Positions 2,037 to 38,141 of a stretch of DNA of 64,000 bases are shown piece after piece (the first letter of the stretch is position 1; each line of letters opens with the position of its first letter). Under the pieces are notes generated by a model. It was not told the origin of the DNA, made no database searches, and saw only the letters and a program-made list of their open reading frames with translations. The position numbers were made by a program, and so were the translations under genes. The DNA comes from an uncultured Paracoccaceae bacterium (GTDB lineage: Bacteria > Pseudomonadota > Alphaproteobacteria > Rhodobacterales > Rhodobacteraceae): contig CAJJAR010000001.1 of assembly GCA_905182105.1 (NCBI GenBank), positions 186,001-250,000 on the forward strand. Reading direction: 5' to 3'.

Positions 2037-4853
2037 ATGAACCAGCCAAAGATTGATCTCTCGCCCAAAGTTTCCGATGAGATCCGCAAAACCACCTGCT
2101 ACATGTGCGCCTGCCGCTGTGGGATCAACGTCCACATGAAGGAAGGCAAAGTTGCCTATATCGAGGGCAACCGCGATCACCCTGTGAACAAGGGTGTGCT
2201 GTGCGCAAAAGGGTCTGCTGGCATCATGCAGGTCAACGCACCTTCACGCCTAAACGCTCCAATGAAACGCGTTGGCCCACGTGGCTCTGGTGAGTTCGAA
2301 AAAATTAGCTGGGATGAAGCGCTTCAAATCGCGACTGATTGGCTTGAGCCGATCCGCAAAGAGAACCCAGAAAAGCTGGCGTTTTTTACGGGCCGCGACC
2401 AATCACAATCCTTCACATCTTACTGGGCACAGCACTTTGGCACGCCAAACTACGCAGCCCACGGCGGCTTCTGTTCCGTTAACATGGCCGCGGCTGGCAT
2501 CTACACGATGGGCGGCGCATTCTGGGAATTTGGACAACCCGATTGGGACCACACCAAACTCTTCATGCTGTTCGGCGTGGCCGAAGATCACGATTCCAAC
2601 CCGATCAAAATGGGCATTGGTAAGATCAAAGCACGCGGCGCGCGCGTCATCGGCGTGAACCCTATCCGCACCGGCTATAACGCTGTGGCTGATGATTGGG
2701 TCGGCATTACACCGGGCACCGATGGCTTGTTTATCCTCGCGATGATCCATTGCCTGATGAAGGCCGGTAAGATCGATCTGAACTATTTGGCACAATATAC
2801 CAACGCACCTGTGCTGGTAAACTCAGACGAAAAGTCGCCAGAATTCGGCCTATTGATGCGCGACAAAGATGGCAAAGAACTAGTTATCGACCGCGCCACT
2901 GGCAAACTCACTCCGTTCGACCAACCGGGCGTCAAGCCAGATCTATCCGCAACGCACCGCGTAGCGGGCATTACGCACCGCCCAGTATTCCACATGATGG
3001 CAGAGCGCTATCTTGAAGACGAATACGCACCAGAAGCTGTGGCCGAACGTTGTGGCATCCCAGCTAAACGCATCCGTGCCATCGCTGCCGAATTGGCCCG
3101 CGTCGCTTTTGAAGAAAGCTTTGAGCTAGATCAAGAGTGGACCGACTTCCGCGGGGAACATCACAAAACAATGACGGGCCGCCCAGTGTCCTTCCACGCG
3201 ATGCGCGGAATTTCGGCACATGCTAACGGTTTCCAAACTTGCCGCGCATTGCATGTGTTGCAAATCCTACTTGGCACCGTCGAAGTGCCGGGTGGCTTCC
3301 GCTTCAAACCGCCATATCCGAAACCAGCAACTGCACACCCAAAACCACACGTGGGCGTCACACCAGGCAAACCGCTTGATGGCCCACACCTTGGTTTCGT
3401 GCATGGCCCAGACGATCTTGCGCTAAAGGCAGACGGCACGGCAGCGCGCATCGACAAAGCCTTCACATGGGAAAACCCAATGTCCAGCCACGGGCTGATG
3501 CACATGGTAATTTCCAACGCGCACGCGGGAGATCCTTACAAGATCGACACGCTGTTCATGTACATGGCCAACATGTCGTGGAACTCTTCCATGAACACGC
3601 GCGGCGTGATCGAAATGCTGACGGATAAAAATGAGGAAACAGGTGAATACGTGATCCCACGGATCATCTATTCCGATGCCTACTCCTCTGAAATGGTGGC
3701 CTACGCCGATCTTATCTTCCCTGACGCCACATACCTTGAGCGTCACGATTGTATCTCCATGCTCGACCGCCCAATTTGCGAAGCAGACGCAGCCGCCGAT
3801 GCAATCCGCTGGCCTGTCATCGAACCTGACCGCGACGTGCGCGGCTTCCAATCCGTACTTTGCGAACTGGGTGCAAGACTGAACCTGCCAGGTTTCGTGA
3901 ATGAAGACGGCAGCCAAAAATACGCAGACTACGGCGACTACATCGTCAACCACATCCGCAAGCCGGGCATTGGCCCGCTTGCAGGTTTCCGTGGCGAAAA
4001 CGGCGACAAAGCAGGGCGGGGCGACGTAAACCCCAAACAACTCGATCAATACATCGAAAACGGTGGCTTTTTTGTTGAACACATCCAAGCCGGCGCGAAC
4101 TACTACAAACCGTGGAACAAAGCCTACCAAGATTGGGCAGTTGGCATGGGCCTTTTGGATTCACCGCAACCATACCTATTCAATCTATACGTCGAACCAA
4201 TGCGCAAATTCCAACTTGCCGCCGAAGGGCACGGGGATCGCCAACCGCCAGATCACCTGCGCGAACGGATCAAAGAAAAGATGGATCCACTGCCAATTTG
4301 GTACTCAAATGAGGACGAAAACAAAGGCGACGAATACCCAATCACAGCGCTGACACAGCGCCCAATGGCGATGTACCACTCATGGGGCAGCCAGAACGCA
4401 TGGCTACGCCAACTTCACGGCCACAACCCGCTGTATGTGCCAACCAAGCTGATGCAAACCAGCGGCCTGAAAGATGGTGATTGGGCCAAAGTGACATCGC
4501 CCCACGGAGAGATCACAGTGCCTGTTCTTGAAATGGCAGCCCTGAACGAAAACACGATCTGGACATGGAACGCCATCGGCAAACGCAAAGGCGCGTGGGC
4601 CTTGGAAGAAGACGCACCCGAGGTGACCAAAGGGTTCTTACTAAATCACCTGATCCACGAACTGCTGCCACCAAAAGGCGATGGGCTTCGCTGGGCCAAC
4701 TCCGACCCAATTACAGGTCAAGCAGCTTGGTTCGACCTCAAGGTCAAAATCGAAAAAGCGGACCCACCATCGGAATCACAACCGGTCCTCCCCGCAATCA
4801 AATCTCCTGTTGGCAAAGGTCCAAAAGACCTCGCTTGGAAGGTGGGCAAATGA
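2037..4853 (+). CDS. soeA: Sulfite dehydrogenase molybdopterin subunit SoeA
   Basis: A 938-residue molybdopterin oxidoreductase of the DMSO-reductase superfamily. The N-terminus has the 4Fe-4S ligands C21, C24, C28 and C56 (CYMCACRC ... GVLCAKG), followed by the long molybdopterin-binding region and a C-terminal dinucleotide-binding domain. There is no twin-arginine signal, in line with cytoplasmic SoeABC enzymes that oxidise sulfite to sulfate and pass electrons to the quinone pool. ATG at 2037 is preceded by AAGGAG at 2024-2029; the frame is open further upstream but that stretch lies inside tauE. SoeB and SoeC follow. Other polysulfide- or DMSO-reductase-like roles are possible but fit the context less well. 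Confidence 0.9.
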   Translation: MNQPKIDLSPKVSDEIRKTTCYMCACRCGINVHMKEGKVAYIEGNRDHPVNKGVLCAKGSAGIMQVNAPSRLNAPMKRVGPRGSGEFEKISWDEALQIATDWLEPIRKENPEKLAFFTGRDQSQSFTSYWAQHFGTPNYAAHGGFCSVNMAAAGIYTMGGAFWEFGQPDWDHTKLFMLFGVAEDHDSNPIKMGIGKIKARGARVIGVNPIRTGYNAVADDWVGITPGTDGLFILAMIHCLMKAGKIDLNYLAQYTNAPVLVNSDEKSPEFGLLMRDKDGKELVIDRATGKLTPFDQPGVKPDLSATHRVAGITHRPVFHMMAERYLEDEYAPEAVAERCGIPAKRIRAIAAELARVAFEESFELDQEWTDFRGEHHKTMTGRPVSFHAMRGISAHANGFQTCRALHVLQILLGTVEVPGGFRFKPPYPKPATAHPKPHVGVTPGKPLDGPHLGFVHGPDDLALKADGTAARIDKAFTWENPMSSHGLMHMVISNAHAGDPYKIDTLFMYMANMSWNSSMNTRGVIEMLTDKNEETGEYVIPRIIYSDAYSSEMVAYADLIFPDATYLERHDCISMLDRPICEADAAADAIRWPVIEPDRDVRGFQSVLCELGARLNLPGFVNEDGSQKYADYGDYIVNHIRKPGIGPLAGFRGENGDKAGRGDVNPKQLDQYIENGGFFVEHIQAGANYYKPWNKAYQDWAVGMGLLDSPQPYLFNLYVEPMRKFQLAAEGHGDRQPPDHLRERIKEKMDPLPIWYSNEDENKGDEYPITALTQRPMAMYHSWGSQNAWLRQLHGHNPLYVPTKLMQTSGLKDGDWAKVTSPHGEITVPVLEMAALNENTIWTWNAIGKRKGAWALEEDAPEVTKGFLLNHLIHELLPPKGDGLRWANSDPITGQAAWFDLKVKIEKADPPSESQPVLPAIKSPVGKGPKDLAWKVGK

Positions 4854-29030: not shown

Positions 29031-29124
29031 TCCAACACTCCCTTGGCGATTTCACTGGCTTCACCTAATACAAAACCTATATCCAAAATTGAAACAGACG
29101 CAATTCCCCAGAGAGGTTCAACCA

Positions 29125-29610
29125 ATGGCAATTAAACAAGGCGATACACTCCCAGACGCAATTTTCACCAAAATCGCGGCAGAAGGCCCAGAAATTGTTG
29201 ATCTGGCTAATAAAACAGCTGGTCGCAAAGTCGTCATTTTTGCGGTACCTGGTGCTTTCACGCCAACATGCAATTCAGCACACGTTCCCAGCTTTATCCG
29301 AACCAAAGACCAGTTCGATGCCAAAGGTGTTGACGAGATTATCTGCATCTCAGTCAACGACCCCCATGTGATGAAAACATGGGGTGAAACAACTGGCGCA
29401 ACTGAAGCTGGAATCACAATGTTGGCCGACGCGCAGAGCCTGTTCACAACAGGTATTGGAATGGAATTCAGCGCACCACCAGTTGGCTTTTTTGCGCGTT
29501 CAAAGCGCTATGCTATGCTAGTTAATGATGGCGTGGTAACGATATTACAAGAAGATGCCCCGGGTGCATGCGACGTTTCAGCTGGCGAAGGTCTGCTTGC
29601 ATCTATGTGA
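29125..29610 (+). CDS. Peroxiredoxin, Prx5/glutaredoxin-dependent type
   Basis: A 161-residue thiol peroxidase with the peroxidatic Cys in VPGAFTPTCNSAHVPSF and the Prx5 phrase EIICISVNDPHVMKTWGE. Reduces hydroperoxides in the cytoplasm. Start MAIKQGD chosen because GAGAGG lies about 9 bases upstream; longer upstream codons overlap the divergent reductase gene. Ends at a clear terminator, which also marks the left limit of the AT-rich block. Confidence 0.92.
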   Translation: MAIKQGDTLPDAIFTKIAAEGPEIVDLANKTAGRKVVIFAVPGAFTPTCNSAHVPSFIRTKDQFDAKGVDEIICISVNDPHVMKTWGETTGATEAGITMLADAQSLFTTGIGMEFSAPPVGFFARSKRYAMLVNDGVVTILQEDAPGACDVSAGEGLLASM

Positions 29611-29644
29611 TTTCAAAACTCAAAAATACATTTTAATTGCTTTT

Positions 29645-29671
29645 AAGGCTCCCAATTTGGGGGCCTTTTTA
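29645..29671 (+). terminator. Rho-independent terminator after the peroxiredoxin gene
   Basis: AAGGCTCCC and GGGGGCCTT form a stem with an AATTT loop, followed by TTTTTA. A classic intrinsic terminator. Confidence 0.85.
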
Positions 29672-30250
29672 TTACCATTGATACTATATGATATTTTATT
29701 GTCGTTCAAAGGTCATTATATCTTGTTAAACTTCAACTTCACTACAACATTCTTCAAGTGAGGTTCTGCAATCTTCAATCGCCATTCAAAGGTATTTTTT
29801 AGAGAGACGAAGATGATAGTAATATCACATTGAATTGCAGTTGAGATTTTTCACATTAAAGATGAATAACCTGTCTATGACAAAAGCTGATAGCTTTGAG
29901 CGAGCCAAAATATCAAAAAAGGATTAGTCAAAATAAATAACTGTCGTAACTGACAGCTCCCATTTTATATTTTAAAATAAAAAATTAGACTAGAAAATCA
30001 TTCTCAAAAAACAGTTGAAGCTACTATAATCACATTAAGTAGATGAATTCATTTATAAAAAATTGCAGCTCTGAGATGAACCTACAGATCGGCTGGGGGA
30101 ATCTTGGCACTAAGCACCAAATAGAAACAAGAAAGTTACTCTACGTAACATTAAATTAATATATAGACAAATCGCAGCAACTTGTTAAAATTTAAGCATT
30201 AATCCGCTTATGAAGGCTAGTATGTTTCGTATTCGGAATAACTCAAGCGC
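29672..30250. other. AT-rich non-coding leader region upstream of proteorhodopsin
   Basis: About 580 bases with no supported gene on either strand. It is clearly more AT-rich than the peroxiredoxin gene to its left, with many stops in all frames. No transposase, integrase or recognisable RNA gene could be found. It probably holds the proteorhodopsin promoter, but no consensus -35/-10 pair stands out enough to name. Confidence 0.6.
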
Positions 30251-30275
30251 TATGCTCAATCGGTAGAGCGTTACG
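30251..30275 (+). other. tRNA D-arm-like element just before proteorhodopsin
   Basis: GCTCAATCGGTAGAGC at 30255-30270 has the D-stem and D-loop pattern of bacterial tRNAs (4-bp GCTC/GAGC stem, GG and TA in the loop), and the next GTTACG resembles the start of an anticodon arm. No acceptor, anticodon or T-arm follows, so this is not a working tRNA. It may be a relic of a tRNA insertion site or a chance hairpin in the leader, 26 bases before the ATG. Confidence 0.4.
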
Positions 30276-30296
30276 AATGAATCCTAGGAGAACAAA

Positions 30297-31082
30297 ATGA
30301 AGACGATTTATGGTAGAATAAAACTTATGGGAGCAAGCGCTGCGTTAATTGCAGCACCAAACTTTGCTCAAGCAGCCTCAAATCTAGAGTCAGATGATTT
30401 TGTCGGTATTTCCTTTTGGCTAATATCGATGGCCTTAGTTGCCGCAACCGCTTTCTTCTTCATGGAGACCCAGCGCGTTGAGGGAAAATGGAAGACTTCA
30501 CTGACGGTTTCCGGTCTTGTAACCTTGGTCGCCGCTGTGCATTATTTTTATATGCGGGATGTTTGGATCGAAACTGGATCGACGCCACTAGTGTATCGCT
30601 ACATTGACTGGTTAATCACTGTACCACTTCTGATGGTAGAATTTTACCTTATTTTACGTGCCATCACAAAAGTATCTGGCGGAGTATTCTGGCGTCTCAT
30701 GATTGGCACCATGGTGATGCTCGCTGCGGGTTACATGGGCGAAGCAGGTTACATCAGCGCATGGCTTGGGTTTATCGTAGGCATGGTAGGCTGGGCATAC
30801 ATTTTGTATGAGATTTTTCTTGGCGAAGCAGGTCAAGTTGCTGCCAACGAAGCTCCAGAATCTGTCAAGTCAGCATTCTCAACAATGCGTTGGATTGTTA
30901 CAATCGGTTGGGCAATTTATCCAATAGGTTATTTTATGGGTTACTTTACTGGGGCAGGACCGGAAGAAGCCTCTAGCATGCTTAACATCATATATAACCT
31001 TGCAGACGTGGTAAATAAAATTGCGTTTGGTGTAATCATCTGGAACGTAGCCGTTACAGAATCTGACAAAGCCAAAGCATAA
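30297..31082 (+). CDS. Proteorhodopsin, light-driven proton pump
   Basis: A 261-residue type I rhodopsin with an N-terminal signal-like segment and seven helices. Key residues: H82, R101, proton acceptor D104, T108 and donor E115 (RYIDWLITVPLLMVEFYLIL, the DTE pattern of proton pumps), helix-G Asp at D237, and retinal lysine K241 in NLADVVNKIAFG. The position matching 105 of SAR86 proteorhodopsin is Leu (L112), which in known variants gives green absorption. A GGAG ribosome site lies 6 bases before ATG. It would pump protons outward in light. Retinal-synthesis genes follow directly. Composition is more AT-rich than flanking housekeeping genes. Confidence 0.96.
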   Translation: MKTIYGRIKLMGASAALIAAPNFAQAASNLESDDFVGISFWLISMALVAATAFFFMETQRVEGKWKTSLTVSGLVTLVAAVHYFYMRDVWIETGSTPLVYRYIDWLITVPLLMVEFYLILRAITKVSGGVFWRLMIGTMVMLAAGYMGEAGYISAWLGFIVGMVGWAYILYEIFLGEAGQVAANEAPESVKSAFSTMRWIVTIGWAIYPIGYFMGYFTGAGPEEASSMLNIIYNLADVVNKIAFGVIIWNVAVTESDKAKA

Positions 31083-31087
31083 AATTA

Positions 31088-31115
31088 AATGAGGCAGGTC
31101 AAGACCTGCCTCATT
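31088..31115 (+). terminator. Perfect 13-bp hairpin between proteorhodopsin and crtE
   Basis: AATGAGGCAGGTC and GACCTGCCTCATT are exact inverses around AA, starting 5 bases after the proteorhodopsin stop. No T-run follows (ACTAAC), so it may be a partial terminator or a 3'-end stabiliser that keeps pump mRNA high while letting some transcription continue into crtE. Confidence 0.7.
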
Positions 31116-31153
31116 ACTAACTGAACTATACTGGTAGAGAGGTGTCAATTTCT

Positions 31154-32167
31154 ATGTCAAACTCCCAGGAAATAGCCCAAAAAGGCCCAGAATTACCTCT
31201 ATTGTTTGAAGATGATGTCATTAAAAAAATACATCATCTTATCAACATTCGCTTACCTAATGGAGAGACGACACTGAGCTCCGCAGCCAAATATCACTTT
31301 GCGCAACCTGGCAAAATGTTAAGAGGTAAAATGGCAGTGCATTCTGCGGAACTGCTAAAAGTAAATGATACAGCTTCACTATACTGGGCAGCGGCAATTG
31401 AAACTCTTCATAACGCATCACTAATTCACGATGACATTTGTGATAATGATCTAATTCGCCGTGATCAGCCTTCTATTTGGTCAAAATATGGAAAAAATGT
31501 AGCTTTAACTCTTGGAGATTGGTTAATAGCACTTGCATTTGAATTAGCGGCTGAGGCCAGCCAAAGAGCACAAACACCAACACTTGTGAAAATTTTAGCA
31601 CAACACATGGCCACAACCACATCAGGAGAGGCCTCTGAATTTTCCTTAAATAAAGTTCCTGACTGGAGCCAATATGTACAAATGGCCTCTGACAAAACGG
31701 CGCCGTTGCTCACAGCCCCCTTTGAAGGAGTTGCAGCGATGGCCCTATATGGGGAGGCATCCTCATCAATTAGTGTATACTTTAGAAGCCTTGGTGCGGC
31801 ATATCAAATAGCTAATGACCTCATGAATTTCCGCGCCTTAGATGGCGCAGTCAGTAAAGGTTCTGATCTTGCCCGACGAGCCCCAAACGCAGTAGTTGTG
31901 ACCTATCGTGAGACCTTATCTCCAGATAAATTATATTTATTTGATTCATGGTACAGCTCAGGGTCTAACTCAGATTTTAAAAGCTGGCGTTTCGAAATCC
32001 TGTCATCCCGCGCAATGTTTATCGCAGCAGAACGCATGCAAGATAATCTTAGCCAATCTTCACATTTAGTTGAAGAGATGCCTTTAGCACTTGCTGGAGC
32101 TGTTTTACCTGTTCAAGAACTACTGCAAAAGGTGTGCATGAAGGCAACTTCACTCACAGAAACTTAG
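31154..32167 (+). CDS. crtE: Geranylgeranyl diphosphate synthase
   Basis: About 337 residues of the trans-isoprenyl diphosphate synthase family, making the C20 precursor of phytoene. The first aspartate-rich motif is intact (HDDICDNDLIRR, D93-D97). The second, normally DDxxD, reads NDLMN at about residues 221-225, so one metal-binding Asp is Asn and the last is also replaced. The ATG at 31154 has GAGAGG about 11 bases upstream; an in-frame GTG at 31142 overlaps that site. First pigment gene after the hairpin. Confidence 0.85.
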   Translation: MSNSQEIAQKGPELPLLFEDDVIKKIHHLINIRLPNGETTLSSAAKYHFAQPGKMLRGKMAVHSAELLKVNDTASLYWAAAIETLHNASLIHDDICDNDLIRRDQPSIWSKYGKNVALTLGDWLIALAFELAAEASQRAQTPTLVKILAQHMATTTSGEASEFSLNKVPDWSQYVQMASDKTAPLLTAPFEGVAAMALYGEASSSISVYFRSLGAAYQIANDLMNFRALDGAVSKGSDLARRAPNAVVVTYRETLSPDKLYLFDSWYSSGSNSDFKSWRFEILSSRAMFIAAERMQDNLSQSSHLVEEMPLALAGAVLPVQELLQKVCMKATSLTET

Positions 32168-32181
32168 GCTGAGGTGCAAAA

Positions 32182-33702
32182 ATGAATGCAAACTCTTCTG
32201 AAAATGCGAGCCGTGAGTTGGGGACAATACTCGTTATAGGTGCTGGCTTTGGAGGAATTGCGGCGGCTCTACGAATGCGTGCCAAAGGTTTTCAAGTTAC
32301 TTTAGTTGACCGCCTCAGTGCGATTGGTGGTCGGGCACAAGTGTATGAACGAGGAGGGTTTCGTCATGATGCTGGCCCCACTGTCATTACAGCACCATTC
32401 CTGTTTGACGAATTATTTGAACTATTCAATGAAACTCGGAGTGACCACGTCGAATTTCGTGCTTTAGATCTTTGGTACAGATTTTATTTTCATTGCGGCC
32501 GACAGTTTGATTATTGTCGTTCTATGGATGAAACGAATGAGCAAATAAGGAAATTTGAGCCCAAAGATGTTGACGGTTACCAACATCTTTTGACAAAATC
32601 TAAAGCTATATATGAAGTCGGATTTGATAAACTAGCCAATCGTCCCTTTCATAAAGTCAAAACAATGTTACTACAAATTCCTCACCTTTTGAGGTTAAAG
32701 AGCTATTATTCCGTTACAACCATCGTAAATCAGCACCTGAAACATCCATTACTTAGACAGGCATTCTCAATTCATCCACTATTAGTTGGAGGAAATCCAT
32801 TTAGTACGACATCAATTTACGCTTTAATACATTATCTCGAACGCAAGTGGGGGGTGTATTTTTGTATGGGTGGCACTGGCAAGTTGGTCCAAGCACTTCA
32901 CGGATTACTTTTGCGTGCTGGCGTTACCGTAGAGCTCAATGTTGATATAGAGGAAATAACACTGTCAAGGGGCCTTGCTAACGGAGCAATCGCCAAATGT
33001 GGTAAAATATTCAAAGCGGATAGAGTCATCTGCAATGGTGATCCTCCTACCGTATACGCACAGATGTTGCCTGCCGATGGACAAAAACGAAGACGATTAG
33101 CATCTGAAAAACTCACTCATTATTCCATGGGGCTTTATGTTTTGTTCTTTGGGACAAAACGACAATACCCTGATGTCGCACATCATACAATTTGGATGGG
33201 ACCTCGGTACAAAGAATTATTAAAAGATATTTTTGAAAAAAAAATCTTATCTGATGATTTTTCATTATATCTACATCGCCCCACAGCCACCGACCCGAGC
33301 TTCGCCCCCGATGGGTGCGACAGTTTTTATGTACTATGCCCTGTGCCCAATTTAAGAGGTAAGATTAATTGGAACGAAGAGGGTCCAAAGTTAAAAAATC
33401 GCATAATTAAGGCTTTATCAAATACTATATTGCCAGATCTTGAATCTGAAATTACCGAAGCTTTTGCAATGACGCCAGAAGATTTTAAATCAGACTATCG
33501 TTCCATGCACGGCGCAGGCTTCTCCTTAGCGCCAATTTTCACCCAATCAGCTTGGTTTCGATATCATAATCGTGATCCTCACATTCCAAACCTCTACTTT
33601 TCTGCTGCAGGAGCGCATCCTGGTGCAGGGATGCCAGGAGTTCTGTGCTCCGCGAAGGTAGTGGAGACACTTATTGATGAAGAGTTGGCGGCTTCCAAAT
33701 AG
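32182..33702 (+). CDS. crtI: Phytoene desaturase
   Basis: A 506-residue FAD-dependent desaturase that converts phytoene to lycopene. N-terminal dinucleotide motif VIGAGFGGIAAALRMRAKGF and GGRAQVYERGGFRHDAGPTV; C-terminal CrtI signature YFSAAGAHPGAGMPGVLCSA. Lies 14 bases after crtE. Length is usual for the family. Confidence 0.94.
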   Translation: MNANSSENASRELGTILVIGAGFGGIAAALRMRAKGFQVTLVDRLSAIGGRAQVYERGGFRHDAGPTVITAPFLFDELFELFNETRSDHVEFRALDLWYRFYFHCGRQFDYCRSMDETNEQIRKFEPKDVDGYQHLLTKSKAIYEVGFDKLANRPFHKVKTMLLQIPHLLRLKSYYSVTTIVNQHLKHPLLRQAFSIHPLLVGGNPFSTTSIYALIHYLERKWGVYFCMGGTGKLVQALHGLLLRAGVTVELNVDIEEITLSRGLANGAIAKCGKIFKADRVICNGDPPTVYAQMLPADGQKRRRLASEKLTHYSMGLYVLFFGTKRQYPDVAHHTIWMGPRYKELLKDIFEKKILSDDFSLYLHRPTATDPSFAPDGCDSFYVLCPVPNLRGKINWNEEGPKLKNRIIKALSNTILPDLESEITEAFAMTPEDFKSDYRSMHGAGFSLAPIFTQSAWFRYHNRDPHIPNLYFSAAGAHPGAGMPGVLCSAKVVETLIDEELAASK

Positions 33703-33724
33703 TGCAAGAGTGGGAAAATCGGCT

Positions 33725-34639
33725 ATGCAAACGAACGAGGAACTAACACCAGAGCTATCTTTAGCCAAAAATGGTAAAAGTTTTGATTGGGCCGGTCGTT
33801 TACTCAACAATGAAACTGGACGAGATGCAGCACAACTTTATAGTTTTTGCCGTATTTTAGATGATATGGCAGATGGCGATATCCCCAATGGGCCACAACG
33901 CTTACTTGCTGTACGCTTTGGCTTATCAAACAGATCGACATCTGAGGATTTGATCTTGATGGAGTTAACCGATTTTATTGTCAGAAAAAAAATACCATTT
34001 GAGATTATCATCGCAATGATCGATGGCCTCCTACAAGATCAAAACATTGTTGATGTAAAAGATGAAGATGAACTTTTACAATATTGTTACAGAGTTGCAG
34101 GAACTGTTGGCCTAATGATGAGCCAAATACTCGGCTGCACAAAGAAAAATGCTCTTTTACACGCGATTGATTTAGGCATTGCCATGCAACTGACTAACAT
34201 TGCACGCGATGTATTAGAAGATGCCCATATGGGCCGGCGATACCTACCTGCGTCTTGGGTGGGTGACATATCACCTGATAAAATTTTATCTGTATCGGGA
34301 AGTGGCGCATGTCAGGAACAAGAAAAAATATCCACAGCAGTCAAACAGCTCATAGATTTATCTGAAATTTATTATAAAAGTGGCTTGGTGGGATTGATTT
34401 ATTTGCGCCCTAGGGACCACTTGGCAATTGCAGTAGCCGCAAAAATTTATCGACAGATTGGAATACAGATAAAAAGTAATGGATATAAATGGTATGAGGG
34501 TCGTGAGATAACCACGAAACGGTCAAAGTTTGCCTGCTCAATACGATCCACAAGAAACCTAGCCAGTCGCTTATTTCAAATACCCCAACACCAAAAATCG
34601 CTCCATGTAGCACTTGCTGGTTTACCATATGTTGATTAA
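33725..34639 (+). CDS. crtB: Phytoene synthase
   Basis: About 304 residues joining two geranylgeranyl diphosphates into phytoene. Both squalene/phytoene-synthase metal motifs are present: YSFCRILDDMADGD (residues about 40-51) and TNIARDVLEDAHMGRRYLP (about 158-175). An in-frame ATG at 33674, inside crtI, would add 17 residues; the start at 33725 gives a more usual N-terminus. Confidence 0.93.
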   Translation: MQTNEELTPELSLAKNGKSFDWAGRLLNNETGRDAAQLYSFCRILDDMADGDIPNGPQRLLAVRFGLSNRSTSEDLILMELTDFIVRKKIPFEIIIAMIDGLLQDQNIVDVKDEDELLQYCYRVAGTVGLMMSQILGCTKKNALLHAIDLGIAMQLTNIARDVLEDAHMGRRYLPASWVGDISPDKILSVSGSGACQEQEKISTAVKQLIDLSEIYYKSGLVGLIYLRPRDHLAIAVAAKIYRQIGIQIKSNGYKWYEGREITTKRSKFACSIRSTRNLASRLFQIPQHQKSLHVALAGLPYVD

Positions 34640-35735
34640 AAAATTAGACATTAGGGCAAAAACTCCCATCGCAATTATCGGTGATGGATGCTCTGCACTC
34701 TCTCTTGCTTCAAAAGCGGCATCGTTACCAAACCATTCAATAAATATATTCTCTTCTCAAAACAATGAAATCAAAAACGATCATGTTTGGGGGTATTGGG
34801 ACATGCATTGGATGAACGCAGTTGCTCCACTTACCATTAAAACTTGGCATAAATGGATTATTCAAACCTCAAACTCAAAAACAGTAATGCACTCTAGGCA
34901 TCATCCATATAAGGCTGTGAAACGAAAAAATTGGATGGCTCACTGCAAGGCTATTGCGCAAAAACACGATGTGACATTCCACACCAGTCTAACCAAGATT
35001 GACAAATTAAAGTGTGCGCAAATATTTGATAGCCGCCCCCCCAAATTCCGGCCTGGCATGATGGTCCAGCATTTCATTGGATGGGAAGTGCAGGCACCTC
35101 CTGGTAGCTTTAACCAAGAAACTGCTATATTAATGGATTTTCGTTGTGACCAATCAAGGGGAGTCCATTTTATATATTGCTTGCCGTTTTCTGATAGCAA
35201 AGCACTGATAGAATCTACAGTTTTTTCCACTACAATTGAACCCAACTCGTTTTATGAGGCTGCTATCACAAACTGGTTATCAGATTGTGCTGGAATTCAA
35301 AATTTTAAAGTTATCAAAACTGAACAAGGAGCTATTCCGCTTGGCTTTATGGAACGACACGATCTGAAGTTTAATGGAATTGGTAGTAACTGTGGTGCAA
35401 TACGGCCATCTAGTGGTTATGCGTTTAGCTTCATACAAAAACAAATATCGAACGCGATTCTTCAATCTAGTTCAACAAAAAAAAGACTTATCTTTGTCAA
35501 TCCTCATAAGAAAATTGACCTTTTAATGGATAGAATTTTTTTATCTGTCTTACGAAACCAACCAAAAATGGCTCCAAAAATATTTGGATGTTTAGCAAAT
35601 TGCTTAACAGGTGACGAATTTGCAAATTTTCTCAGTGGAGAGGCTGGGATCAAACTTCGACTAAAAATTATTGCCGCAATGCCATTGTGGCCATTCGTTC
35701 AAGCGCTTTTTAAATTGGAGGAAATTCCAAAATGA
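34629..35735 (+). CDS. crtY: Lycopene beta-cyclase, CrtY type
   Basis: About 368 residues. Converts lycopene to beta-carotene. A variant dinucleotide motif opens the protein (IAIIGDGCSALSLASKAAS). CrtY-type phrases follow: MVQHFIGWEVQAPPG, AILMDFRCDQ, FIYCLPFSDSKALIEST, and a late IRPSSGYAFSFIQKQ. The ATG lies within the last codons of crtB; a TTG 15 bases upstream is also in frame. Quite AT-rich. Confidence 0.88.
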   Translation: MLIKKLDIRAKTPIAIIGDGCSALSLASKAASLPNHSINIFSSQNNEIKNDHVWGYWDMHWMNAVAPLTIKTWHKWIIQTSNSKTVMHSRHHPYKAVKRKNWMAHCKAIAQKHDVTFHTSLTKIDKLKCAQIFDSRPPKFRPGMMVQHFIGWEVQAPPGSFNQETAILMDFRCDQSRGVHFIYCLPFSDSKALIESTVFSTTIEPNSFYEAAITNWLSDCAGIQNFKVIKTEQGAIPLGFMERHDLKFNGIGSNCGAIRPSSGYAFSFIQKQISNAILQSSSTKKRLIFVNPHKKIDLLMDRIFLSVLRNQPKMAPKIFGCLANCLTGDEFANFLSGEAGIKLRLKIIAAMPLWPFVQALFKLEEIPK

Positions 35736-36568
35736 TAGAGCTTATGCAGTTACTTGGCATACAGATGAGTTTAGCGAGTATAGTTTCCCTTGCTGCAATT
35801 GTATTTTTTGGGCTACCTCACGGCGCTTTTGATGGTGCAGTCGCTCTTTCATTAGGTTTTGGAAAAACACCACTATTGATGCTGGCATTTGTGCTTTTAT
35901 ATCTAGCAATAGCTGTATCAGTGGTATTTTTTTGGTTAAGTTTTCCCGAAATATCCTTAATCTCATTTTTAATTTTTAGCGCATTTCATTTTGGAATGGG
36001 TGATAGCCAAGCTTTAGATAAAACAAACCGTGCAAAACAGATTCTTACGCACGGCGGACTAGTCGTCGTTGGAATAAGTGTATTTCATCATGATGAGACG
36101 AACGTGATTTTTTCCTATCTTACTGACGGTCAAACTTTTTTAGTATGGCAATTTATTGAAATCTGTAAATTTATCTTATTTCCTGTAATTCTATTATATC
36201 TGATCGAATCTTTTCGTCGTCCAGTGCTGAGAATAAGATTCTTTGAGCTTATTCTCTTAGGTGTAATTTTTTATTTCTTACCCCCATTAGTCGGTTTTTC
36301 GATTTATTTCTGTGGTATACATTCAATACGTCACATTAATTACACGTGGCTTAAACTGCGCTCAAAAAAATACACAATTCAGACAATCATTTATTTGGCC
36401 ATCACGTTCACTATCACAAGCTGGCTTTTAGGCGTTTTGTTATTCTGGCAATTACCAACAGCTGATTTTGCCGATGCCGCTCTTTTGAAAACTGTTTTTA
36501 TTGGGTTAGCAGCCTTAACAGTCCCCCACATGCTATTAGTCGACGGTATTTTTCGTCAATCTGATTGA
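35732..36568 (+). CDS. blh: Beta-carotene 15,15'-dioxygenase Blh
   Basis: A 278-residue membrane protein of the Brp/Blh family that cleaves beta-carotene to two retinals, the chromophore of the rhodopsin. Conserved histidines lie in FFGLPHGAFDGA (H30), SAFHFGMGD (H86), GIHSIRHINY (H197, H201) and LTVPHMLLVDG (H266). ATG overlaps the crtY stop by 4 bases. Last gene of the cassette; no isopentenyl isomerase gene follows, unlike many proteorhodopsin clusters. Confidence 0.92.
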   Translation: MIELMQLLGIQMSLASIVSLAAIVFFGLPHGAFDGAVALSLGFGKTPLLMLAFVLLYLAIAVSVVFFWLSFPEISLISFLIFSAFHFGMGDSQALDKTNRAKQILTHGGLVVVGISVFHHDETNVIFSYLTDGQTFLVWQFIEICKFILFPVILLYLIESFRRPVLRIRFFELILLGVIFYFLPPLVGFSIYFCGIHSIRHINYTWLKLRSKKYTIQTIIYLAITFTITSWLLGVLLFWQLPTADFADAALLKTVFIGLAALTVPHMLLVDGIFRQSD

Positions 36569-36657
36569 AACTGGTCATTTTTTAGACATCACTTAAAAAG
36601 CGATCATCACAGGTTTAAGGTTTAAGCTTCCCATAGAGCACTAGGAATTCTGAGGCG

Positions 36658-36957
36658 TTAAGTTGTAAATAGTGAATCCATTTTGCACGCCAGGTTAAGA
36701 TCCAGATCACTCAGACCATCGACATCATGGGTTGTAAGCGTCACGTTCACGCACGAATAAGCATGCGACCATTCAGGATGGTGGTTCCACTTCTCTGCCC
36801 AAATTGCCACACGTGTCATCCAGCCAAACGCATCAATGAAATTTTTAAACTTGAATTCTTTAACCAAAGCATCCCGTTCTGAATGTAGAACCCAACCGTT
36901 TGTTATCAGTGGGGCAAGCAATGCATGACGCTCATCAATAGGCAGCTTTTCTATCAT
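36658..36957 (-). CDS. phhB: Pterin-4a-carbinolamine dehydratase
   Basis: A 99-residue protein with the family core (WMTRVAIWAEKWNHHPEW, VNVTLTTHDVDGLSDLD). Recycles tetrahydropterin used by phenylalanine hydroxylase; no hydroxylase is in the window. Last gene of the minus-strand operon, overlapping its neighbour by 4 bases. It marks the right limit of the AT-rich block. Confidence 0.92.
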   Translation of the reverse strand: MIEKLPIDERHALLAPLITNGWVLHSERDALVKEFKFKNFIDAFGWMTRVAIWAEKWNHHPEWSHAYSCVNVTLTTHDVDGLSDLDLNLACKMDSLFTT

Positions 36958-38141
36958 TCTTGCTCCTCTGCTATAGCACGCTTAAAGGGACCATATTGAG
37001 TCAGAATTTCGATGTCTTCTCCAACGGCTTCACGCTCTGCTTTTAGATACGACCCAATCGCCTTGGAAAACCCTGTATCCCGGACCCAGTGTAAACTATG
37101 CGTTTGGGTCGGCAAATACCCACGCGCCAATTTATGCTGACCTTGTGCGCCCGCCTCGACCCGCTTCAAGCCATCCCTGATCGCAATATCGATCGCCTGA
37201 TAATAGCACAGTTCGAAATGCAGGCAGGCATGGTGTTCAACACAACCCCAATAGCGACCATACAGCGTCTCGCGGCCCACAAAATTCAATGCCCCTGCGA
37301 TCCATTCTCCATCTCGGCGCGCTAAGACCAGCGCCATATCATCACGTAACGTCTCATGCGCAATCTCGAAAAACTGGCGGGTAAGATATGGCGTACCCCA
37401 CTTGCGCTCACCAGTATCTTGGTAAAACTCCCAGAAAGCATCCCAGTGTTCAGGCTCTATCTGGTCCCCCCGCAAGGTTACGATGTCGCCACCAAAACCT
37501 TGAGCCTGCGCCCGTTCTTTGCGGATGTTCTTGCGCTTACGCGAACTCAGATCAGCTAAGAAACCATCGAAGTCCTTATATCGATTATTCAACCAATGAA
37601 ATTGTTGGGTGGCCCGTGACATCAATCCCAGCTGCGCACCCAACTCAGCCTCAGCTTCAGTGCAGAAGGTGGCATGAACACTGGACACTTGATTGTCCGC
37701 AGCCAATTGAATGGCACCCTGAACCAAAGCGGAAAAACCCGTTTCTGCAAAATCCGGGTGTACCAAAAAGCGACGACCCGTTGCAGGCGTATGCGGCACT
37801 GCGATTTGAATCTTCGGGTAGTAGCGACCACCTGCTTGTTCATAGGCTTGGGCCCAATTGTGATCAAATATGTACTCACCCTGTGAATGCGATTTCACAT
37901 AAAGCGGCGCAACGGCGATCACCTGTTCATCGACGCGCGCAACCAAGTATTGTGGCTGCCAACCTGTACCAGAGCCAACAGATCCGCTGTCTTCTAACGC
38001 CCTTAAAAAACGGTAAGTTGTGAAGGGATCATTAGGGCGACCACCATCAGAAACCTCTGGGCAGGCACAGCTGTCCCAAACAAGTTGTCCAATCTCTGCG
38101 ATCTTAGGAATGACGCTGATTTCAACTTGATGCTGCTTCAT
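36954..38141 (-). CDS. FemAB/GNAT-like 'peptidogalycan biosynthesis' family protein
   Basis: A 395-residue soluble protein of the GNAT-related family annotated as peptidogalycan biosynthesis/recognition. Recognisable segments are DHNWAQAYEQAGGRYYPK, QFHWLNNRYKDFDGFLADL, SSRKRKNIRKERAQAQ, and YGRYWGCVEHHACLHFELCY. Enzymatic function is not established. Shares the RidA-GDPD-PhhB operon. Confidence 0.82.
   Translation of the reverse strand: MKQHQVEISVIPKIAEIGQLVWDSCACPEVSDGGRPNDPFTTYRFLRALEDSGSVGSGTGWQPQYLVARVDEQVIAVAPLYVKSHSQGEYIFDHNWAQAYEQAGGRYYPKIQIAVPHTPATGRRFLVHPDFAETGFSALVQGAIQLAADNQVSSVHATFCTEAEAELGAQLGLMSRATQQFHWLNNRYKDFDGFLADLSSRKRKNIRKERAQAQGFGGDIVTLRGDQIEPEHWDAFWEFYQDTGERKWGTPYLTRQFFEIAHETLRDDMALVLARRDGEWIAGALNFVGRETLYGRYWGCVEHHACLHFELCYYQAIDIAIRDGLKRVEAGAQGQHKLARGYLPTQTHSLHWVRDTGFSKAIGSYLKAEREAVGEDIEILTQYGPFKRAIAEEQE

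Follow-up and report, generated by a model that had tools for sequence, protein, structure and literature searches.

The window analysed here, 64,000 nucleotides from the draft genome of a marine Paracoccaceae bacterium of the roseobacter group (G000; contig C1, positions 186001–250000), contains an inserted segment of about 7.0 kb that carries a proteorhodopsin (PR) gene together with a set of genes for retinal synthesis. We consider it about 90% probable that this segment is a complete PR photosystem, acquired laterally from a donor of the RCA type (the Planktomarina group of roseobacters) or from a near relative. Six genes, PR, crtE, crtI, crtB, crtY and blh, lie in this order on the + strand between 30297 and 36568, and all of them are open and family-matched according to the ORF list and to profile searches (Table 1). 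The original prediction of six same-strand rhodopsin, crt and blh genes was therefore right, and its self-sufficient cassette is consistent with the five retinal-pathway genes standing intact beside PR. The block had been taken to start at 29612; the genes do fall inside it, but coding begins only at 30297, and the earlier boundary takes in the terminator of the peroxiredoxin gene prx and a leader of ~625 bp.

The site of insertion is empty in close relatives. In the nearest members of the genus, G295 and G301, whose FemAB proteins are 96% and 95% identical to that of the window, the aligned ends of prx and phhB are separated by 82 nt with nothing in between (loci L121 and L122), while in L124 the distance is 90 nt. 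Because the prx terminator is common to these empty sites, the left junction can be placed just behind the terminator, and the right junction at the phhB stop or immediately ahead of it. The cassette had no match in any of 18 femAB regions (7 from the genus and 11 from the family). The gap measured 55–252 nt in seven of the family regions; in the RCA group, prx and phhB were 17–63 nt apart in 7/7 femAB regions, again with no cassette there. A phhB match was missing in L123, both prx and phhB were missing in L136, and no prx occurred within the stretch examined for L126 and L127. In L125, L128, L132 and L138 the gap was filled with 0.9–2.0 kb of other sequence, meaning that it takes up DNA beyond this cassette; it is perhaps a tolerated insertion site. 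The gap of L176 is likewise occupied by other sequence in the same size range.

The composition of the insert sets it apart from its surroundings, as had been proposed. Its GC content is 40.2% (29672–36657) vs 51.3% in the remaining window, so that composition is far from uniform across the block. GC content at third codon positions (GC3) ranges from 0.305 to 0.424 across the six cassette genes, as compared with a mean of 0.523 (sd 0.055, minimum 0.415) for 51 other window ORFs of at least 150 aa, a reference set obtained by greedy ORF choice rather than from curated genes. The predicted shift in codon use holds for crtE to blh, with codon-score z values of -2.3 to -3.9 and GC3 below that of every reference ORF, but PR is milder (z -1.7) and, at 0.424, is the one gene of the six whose GC3 lies within the reference range.

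The histories of the flanks and of the cassette disagree. In a quick tree of six joined flank proteins, the window fell inside its own genus (100*), and a clade with RCA was rejected (p-AU 3.9e-42). In the PR tree (best 50 rows, coverage at least 70%, L186 left out), by contrast, a single starred set (98*) united the window, six RCA rows and G380. Starred sets uniting the window with RCA rows were also obtained for crtE (99*), crtI (95*), crtB (98*) and crtY (97*), these trees and that of blh being built from the best 24 rows at coverage of at least 50%. The non-vertical gene trees expected from the original prediction were thus found for five of the six genes. Together, the empty sites and the disagreement between flank and cassette trees support horizontal gain, as composition does, and mark the segment as a horizontally acquired island, the blh tree having no starred set. 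The six genes would have come as a unit from an RCA-type donor or one closely related to it, and would have inserted where prx and phhB converge, between the terminator of the former and the end of the latter.

Several observations weigh against an RCA origin in its simplest form. The blh tree has no starred set, and blh is just 48–57% identical to RCA blh. For crtE, crtI and crtY alone, starred branches require the window to lie within RCA; in the PR and crtB trees it may be sister to that group. The window cassette, at 40% GC, also lies below five RCA cassettes at 43.8–47.1%. Moreover, neither a mobility gene nor an end repeat in the insert accounts for its entry. The GC gap and the low blh identity indicate a donor that was RCA-like and yet is none of the genomes compared. 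The proximate donor could also have come from outside RCA, in another low-GC roseobacter cluster (TCR or COR-6F type). The PRs of TCR, RCA and COR-6-F are described as rather closely related (PMC12661815), and none of the compared cassettes reaches the window's 40% GC. RCA was, however, the closest for all six genes among the cassettes compared, a set without TCR or COR-6F members, and we regard such a donor as a serious but less probable option.

Much less probable is vertical inheritance with many losses, whereby an ancestral roseobacter would have had the cassette at its present site. PR does occur in several roseobacter lineages (PMC12661815), but the site is empty in RCA genomes that bear PR elsewhere, any rhodopsin is found in just 2/12 genomes of the genus, the second being a 32% match, and the conflict of flank and cassette trees refutes this explanation. 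An assembly or binning artefact is equally improbable: the draft assembly has 49 contigs and a completeness of 88.5%, and the insert differs in composition, but synteny with the genus is kept on either side, the insert is internal to its contig, and two joins would be required.

How the segment moved is less apparent from its contents. The predicted lack of an integrase or IS agrees with the ORF list: no integrase, transposase or IS is encoded in the insert, where the other ORFs of at least 80 aa are only overlapping or antisense, the rest of the window not having been scanned for mobile genes. The insert ends show no clear repeats or transposon ends, and the repeats that are present look like chance. 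Neither a tRNA gene nor an Rfam match was found in the window. A transposon or integrative element was rejected on the grounds of the missing integrase and transposase, the chance-like repeats and the missing tRNA gene. Carriage on a plasmid was also rejected, as PR relatives occurred in eight plasmid records, every one below 60% identity.

The leader lacks any ORF of 80 aa, and its DNA had no match in 12 other genomes; nor was a 5' leader in common with the window apparent by eye across 21 loci. A scan for sigma-70-like promoters gave 18 sites vs 19.5 in shuffles, not above chance. A 16-mer resembling a tRNA D-arm, GCTCAATCGGTAGAGC, occupies 30254–30269, 27 nt upstream of PR. Its own genome has no second copy at up to 1 mismatch, and 0.02 copies per window would be expected at 2 mismatches. 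It was not seen in the L010 and L011 leaders and the window has no tRNA gene, so that we set aside its reading as a tRNA scar, although it may be either a scar or chance. In the PR leaders of L020, L021 and L025, a common stretch with a palindrome around GTTCTAGAAC occurs just before the start, possibly a regulatory site.

The functions of the encoded proteins can be assigned from their families. PR belongs to the Bac_rhodopsin family, and the closest solved structures are those of green proteorhodopsin (8cqc and 2l6x). Asp104, Thr108, Leu112, Glu115, His82 and Lys241 of the window PR align with Asp97, Thr101, Leu105, Glu108, His75 and Lys231 of that protein, whose numbering and residue roles (pump motif, Schiff-base Lys, tuning site) we take as the accepted ones. 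By this alignment the Asp/Thr/Glu pump motif, the Schiff-base Lys and a Leu at position 105 are all present. CrtE, CrtI, CrtB and CrtY yield beta-carotene, and Blh yields retinal. The first four enzymes would therefore convert the host's isoprenoid precursors to beta-carotene, Blh would cut this to retinal, and retinal bound to Lys241 would turn the opsin into a green-tuned outward proton pump; pumping, colour and pathway are all predicted here from family membership. Position 105, occupied by Leu, is described as the green-tuning position (PMC3380642). The reaction-centre family PF00124 had no match in the window's own genome (88.5% complete), in a search that matched 1/14 control genomes, Synechococcus.

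A second feature, overlooked in the original prediction, is a hairpin with a perfect 12-bp stem and a 4-nt loop between PR and crtE. The region 31080–31153 folds with a z of -4.22, and 0/200 dinucleotide shuffles were equally stable. The stem ends 38 nt before the likely crtE ATG and is followed by T in only 2/8 nt. Hairpins of this kind are common behind PR: a hairpin of -12 kcal/mol or lower occurred within 73 nt of the stop at 83/90 PR loci, as compared with 22/56 for crtE, 17/62 for crtI, 33/59 for crtB, 16/58 for crtY and 9/56 for blh. This survey dropped matches with less than 50% coverage or with less than 73 nt after the stop, and its single-hairpin rule misses L011 despite an 11-bp stem there. 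The median z was -4.6 behind PR and between -0.1 and -0.7 behind the other five genes (15 plain shuffles each).

Under a stricter stem rule, 51/69 PR operons passed and 18/69 failed. Stems were present at 48/62 PR ends vs 38/276 co-directional control gene ends in the same stretches (Fisher p 2.6e-22), and at 53/177 convergent gene ends; stems without a U-run were found at 21/62 PR ends vs 24/276 controls (p 2e-6). Both p values overstate the case, because similarity of PR guided the choice of loci, some of which are closely related. In nine sequences (window, seven RCA and G380), 8/12 stem pairs had changed on both sides, and 0/500 shuffles scored as high; the window itself supplied the structure, however, and for half of the doubly changed pairs the evidence depends on its own stem. 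Of the two outermost pairs, one is kept in 3/9 rows and the other in 4/9. G380 has the same hairpin behind PR, with no U-run, though crt genes are not nearby. In its covariation and its excess at PR ends, the stem is conserved in the manner of a puf-like intercistronic element.

By analogy with the puf operon of Rhodobacter, where segmental mRNA stability sets protein ratios (PMC6238624), the hairpin may act as an expression divider, a role less certain than the functions of the proteins. It would sit within a shared PR–crtE transcript and favour expression of the opsin over that of the enzymes. We see roughly even odds for a broader proposal, namely that the PR operons of many lineages keep a strong hairpin between opsin and retinal genes that holds the opsin above the enzymes, as a leaky terminator in some and as an mRNA-stability barrier in others, the window included, and that this device travels laterally with the cassette. 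The main rival, somewhat less probable, is that the hairpin is not an mRNA-stability element but a leaky terminator, or that the PR transcript ends there and crtE has a separate promoter. Stems with a U-run were also commoner behind PR (20/62 PR ends vs 9/276 controls), which counts against a stability element, and six RCA stems have 3–6 T in 8 nt. Among the 51 strict-stem operons, the 8 nt behind the stem held at least 5 T in 18, 4 T in 9 and at most 3 T in 24, so that this set speaks on both sides. The window, with its 2 T and with scant room for a promoter between stem and crtE, fits a terminator least, whereas the stems of other lineages fit it well. No prior description of the PR–crtE hairpin was found in the literature searched, including the available parts of PMC3587595 and PMC3380642; early papers on PR operons in subscription journals were outside reach and may mention it.

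Rhodopsins are sparsely distributed among the relatives. The two genus genomes that have one are the window's own and G301, whose rhodopsin, a 32% match to the window PR, belongs to a different kind of cassette (L140), which points to two or more gains of rhodopsin in the genus. This different cassette occupies positions 3204–9115 of contig G301:C41, with PR identity of 30–32%; its rhodopsin might, as a guess, be xanthorhodopsin-like. In two samples of the family, rhodopsin matches occurred in 8/295 genomes at E 1e-3 and in 5/394 at E 1e-40, the window's own included in both counts. In the genus of G330 (Planktomarina sp., RCA; locus L011), 8/20 genomes had PR matches, six of them nearly full length with 84–91% identity. 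The FemAB proteins of seven of these RCA genomes are 64–69% identical to the window's, and G332 has no FemAB match. RCA genomes carry the PR cassette at other sites, with flanks that are partly alike among themselves and in no case like the window's. In G334, PR is in two pieces on two contigs. A broken PR in G345 (L184, contig C15, 8159–8940), in three pieces with stops and with no crt or blh match in the 18 kb examined, reflects either decay or an assembly error. In the complete genome G380 (L172, 9014–9799), a PR 85% identical to the window's adjoins an amidase gene and has no crt genes nearby. Of 587 stretches confirmed in named genomes, the best 80 make up the PR loci, which are hence those most like the window PR. 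Among them are L028, L040 and L035, whose draft genomes bear the titles Bordetella parapertussis and Klebsiella pneumoniae; these titles look like mislabelled environmental bins.

Table 1. Features of the insert and its flanks (window coordinates)
Feature	Position	Strand	Basis or remarks
prx, peroxiredoxin (Redoxin family), left neighbour	29122..29610	+	PF08534 E 6.3e-29; start set at internal ATG
prx terminator-like hairpin	29645..29667	+	common to empty sites of relatives
Inserted segment, ~7.0 kb	29672..36657	+	comparison with empty sites L121, L122, L124; junctions exact to within some bases
AT-rich leader 5' of PR, presumed promoter region	29672..30296	+	
PR, 261 aa, predicted green-tuned type by Leu112; Asp104/Thr108/Glu115, Lys241	30297..31082	+	PF01036 E 1.2e-46
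PR/crtE intercistronic hairpin, 12-bp stem, 4-nt loop, no U-run behind	31088..31115	+	
crtE, geranylgeranyl diphosphate synthase	31154..32167	+	PF00348 E 1.6e-42; ATG by comparison with L010; ORF finder: GTG 31142
crtI, phytoene desaturase	32182..33702	+	TIGR02734 E 1.6e-163
crtB, phytoene synthase	33725..34639	+	PF00494 E 6.1e-51; start by comparison with L010; ORF finder: 33674
crtY, lycopene cyclase	34629..35735	+	PF05834 E 2.1e-37; start uncertain; ORF finder: 34614
blh, beta-carotene 15,15'-dioxygenase	35732..36568	+	PF15461 E 7.9e-53; TIGR03753 E 1.7e-62
phhB, pterin-4a-carbinolamine dehydratase, right neighbour	36658..36957	-	PF01329 E 4.6e-28
FemAB-like gene, flank marker	36954..38141	-	PF04339

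Lateral gain of PR is not new in kind, and the window adds a further example, at a new location. The rarity of PR among roseobacters implied by the original prediction is weakened by published reports of PR in the NAC11-7 and RCA lineages (PMC10675870) and, in 2025, in species of Ascidiaceihabitans, Yoonia and Roseovarius (PMC12661815). The nearest sequences to the window are those of the RCA operon, published in 2023 with an identical set and order of six genes, green tuning, lateral gain and a GC mismatch (PMC10675870); the window differs in its genus, its insertion site and its greater AT-richness, and mobile elements are reported near RCA PR, whereas none was seen in the window insert. Ascidiaceihabitans, Yoonia and Roseovarius resemble the present case in the scattered presence of PR or xanthorhodopsin in genera outside the pelagic clusters, and in that one genus may hold both rhodopsin types, as G000 and G301 may do (PMC12661815). 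By its account of Ascidiaceihabitans, a genus with PR plus another rhodopsin type could, as a guess, be that of the window. The PR cluster of Vibrio campbellii, from another class, has the same PR–crtEIBY–blh content and is described as acquired, but it is flanked by transposases (PMC3380642). The Rhodobacter puf operon likewise has a hairpin or processing region within a phototrophy operon; its genes are unrelated, and its effect was shown by experiment, whereas that of the window hairpin is proposed by analogy (PMC6238624).

As an example of an entire light-energy system moved as one unit between distant roseobacters, the window is a clear one, its empty site being nearly exact. If the hairpin acts as we propose, it would explain how a small mobile operon without regulators of its own could at once make opsin in abundance and enzyme sparingly after reaching a new host.

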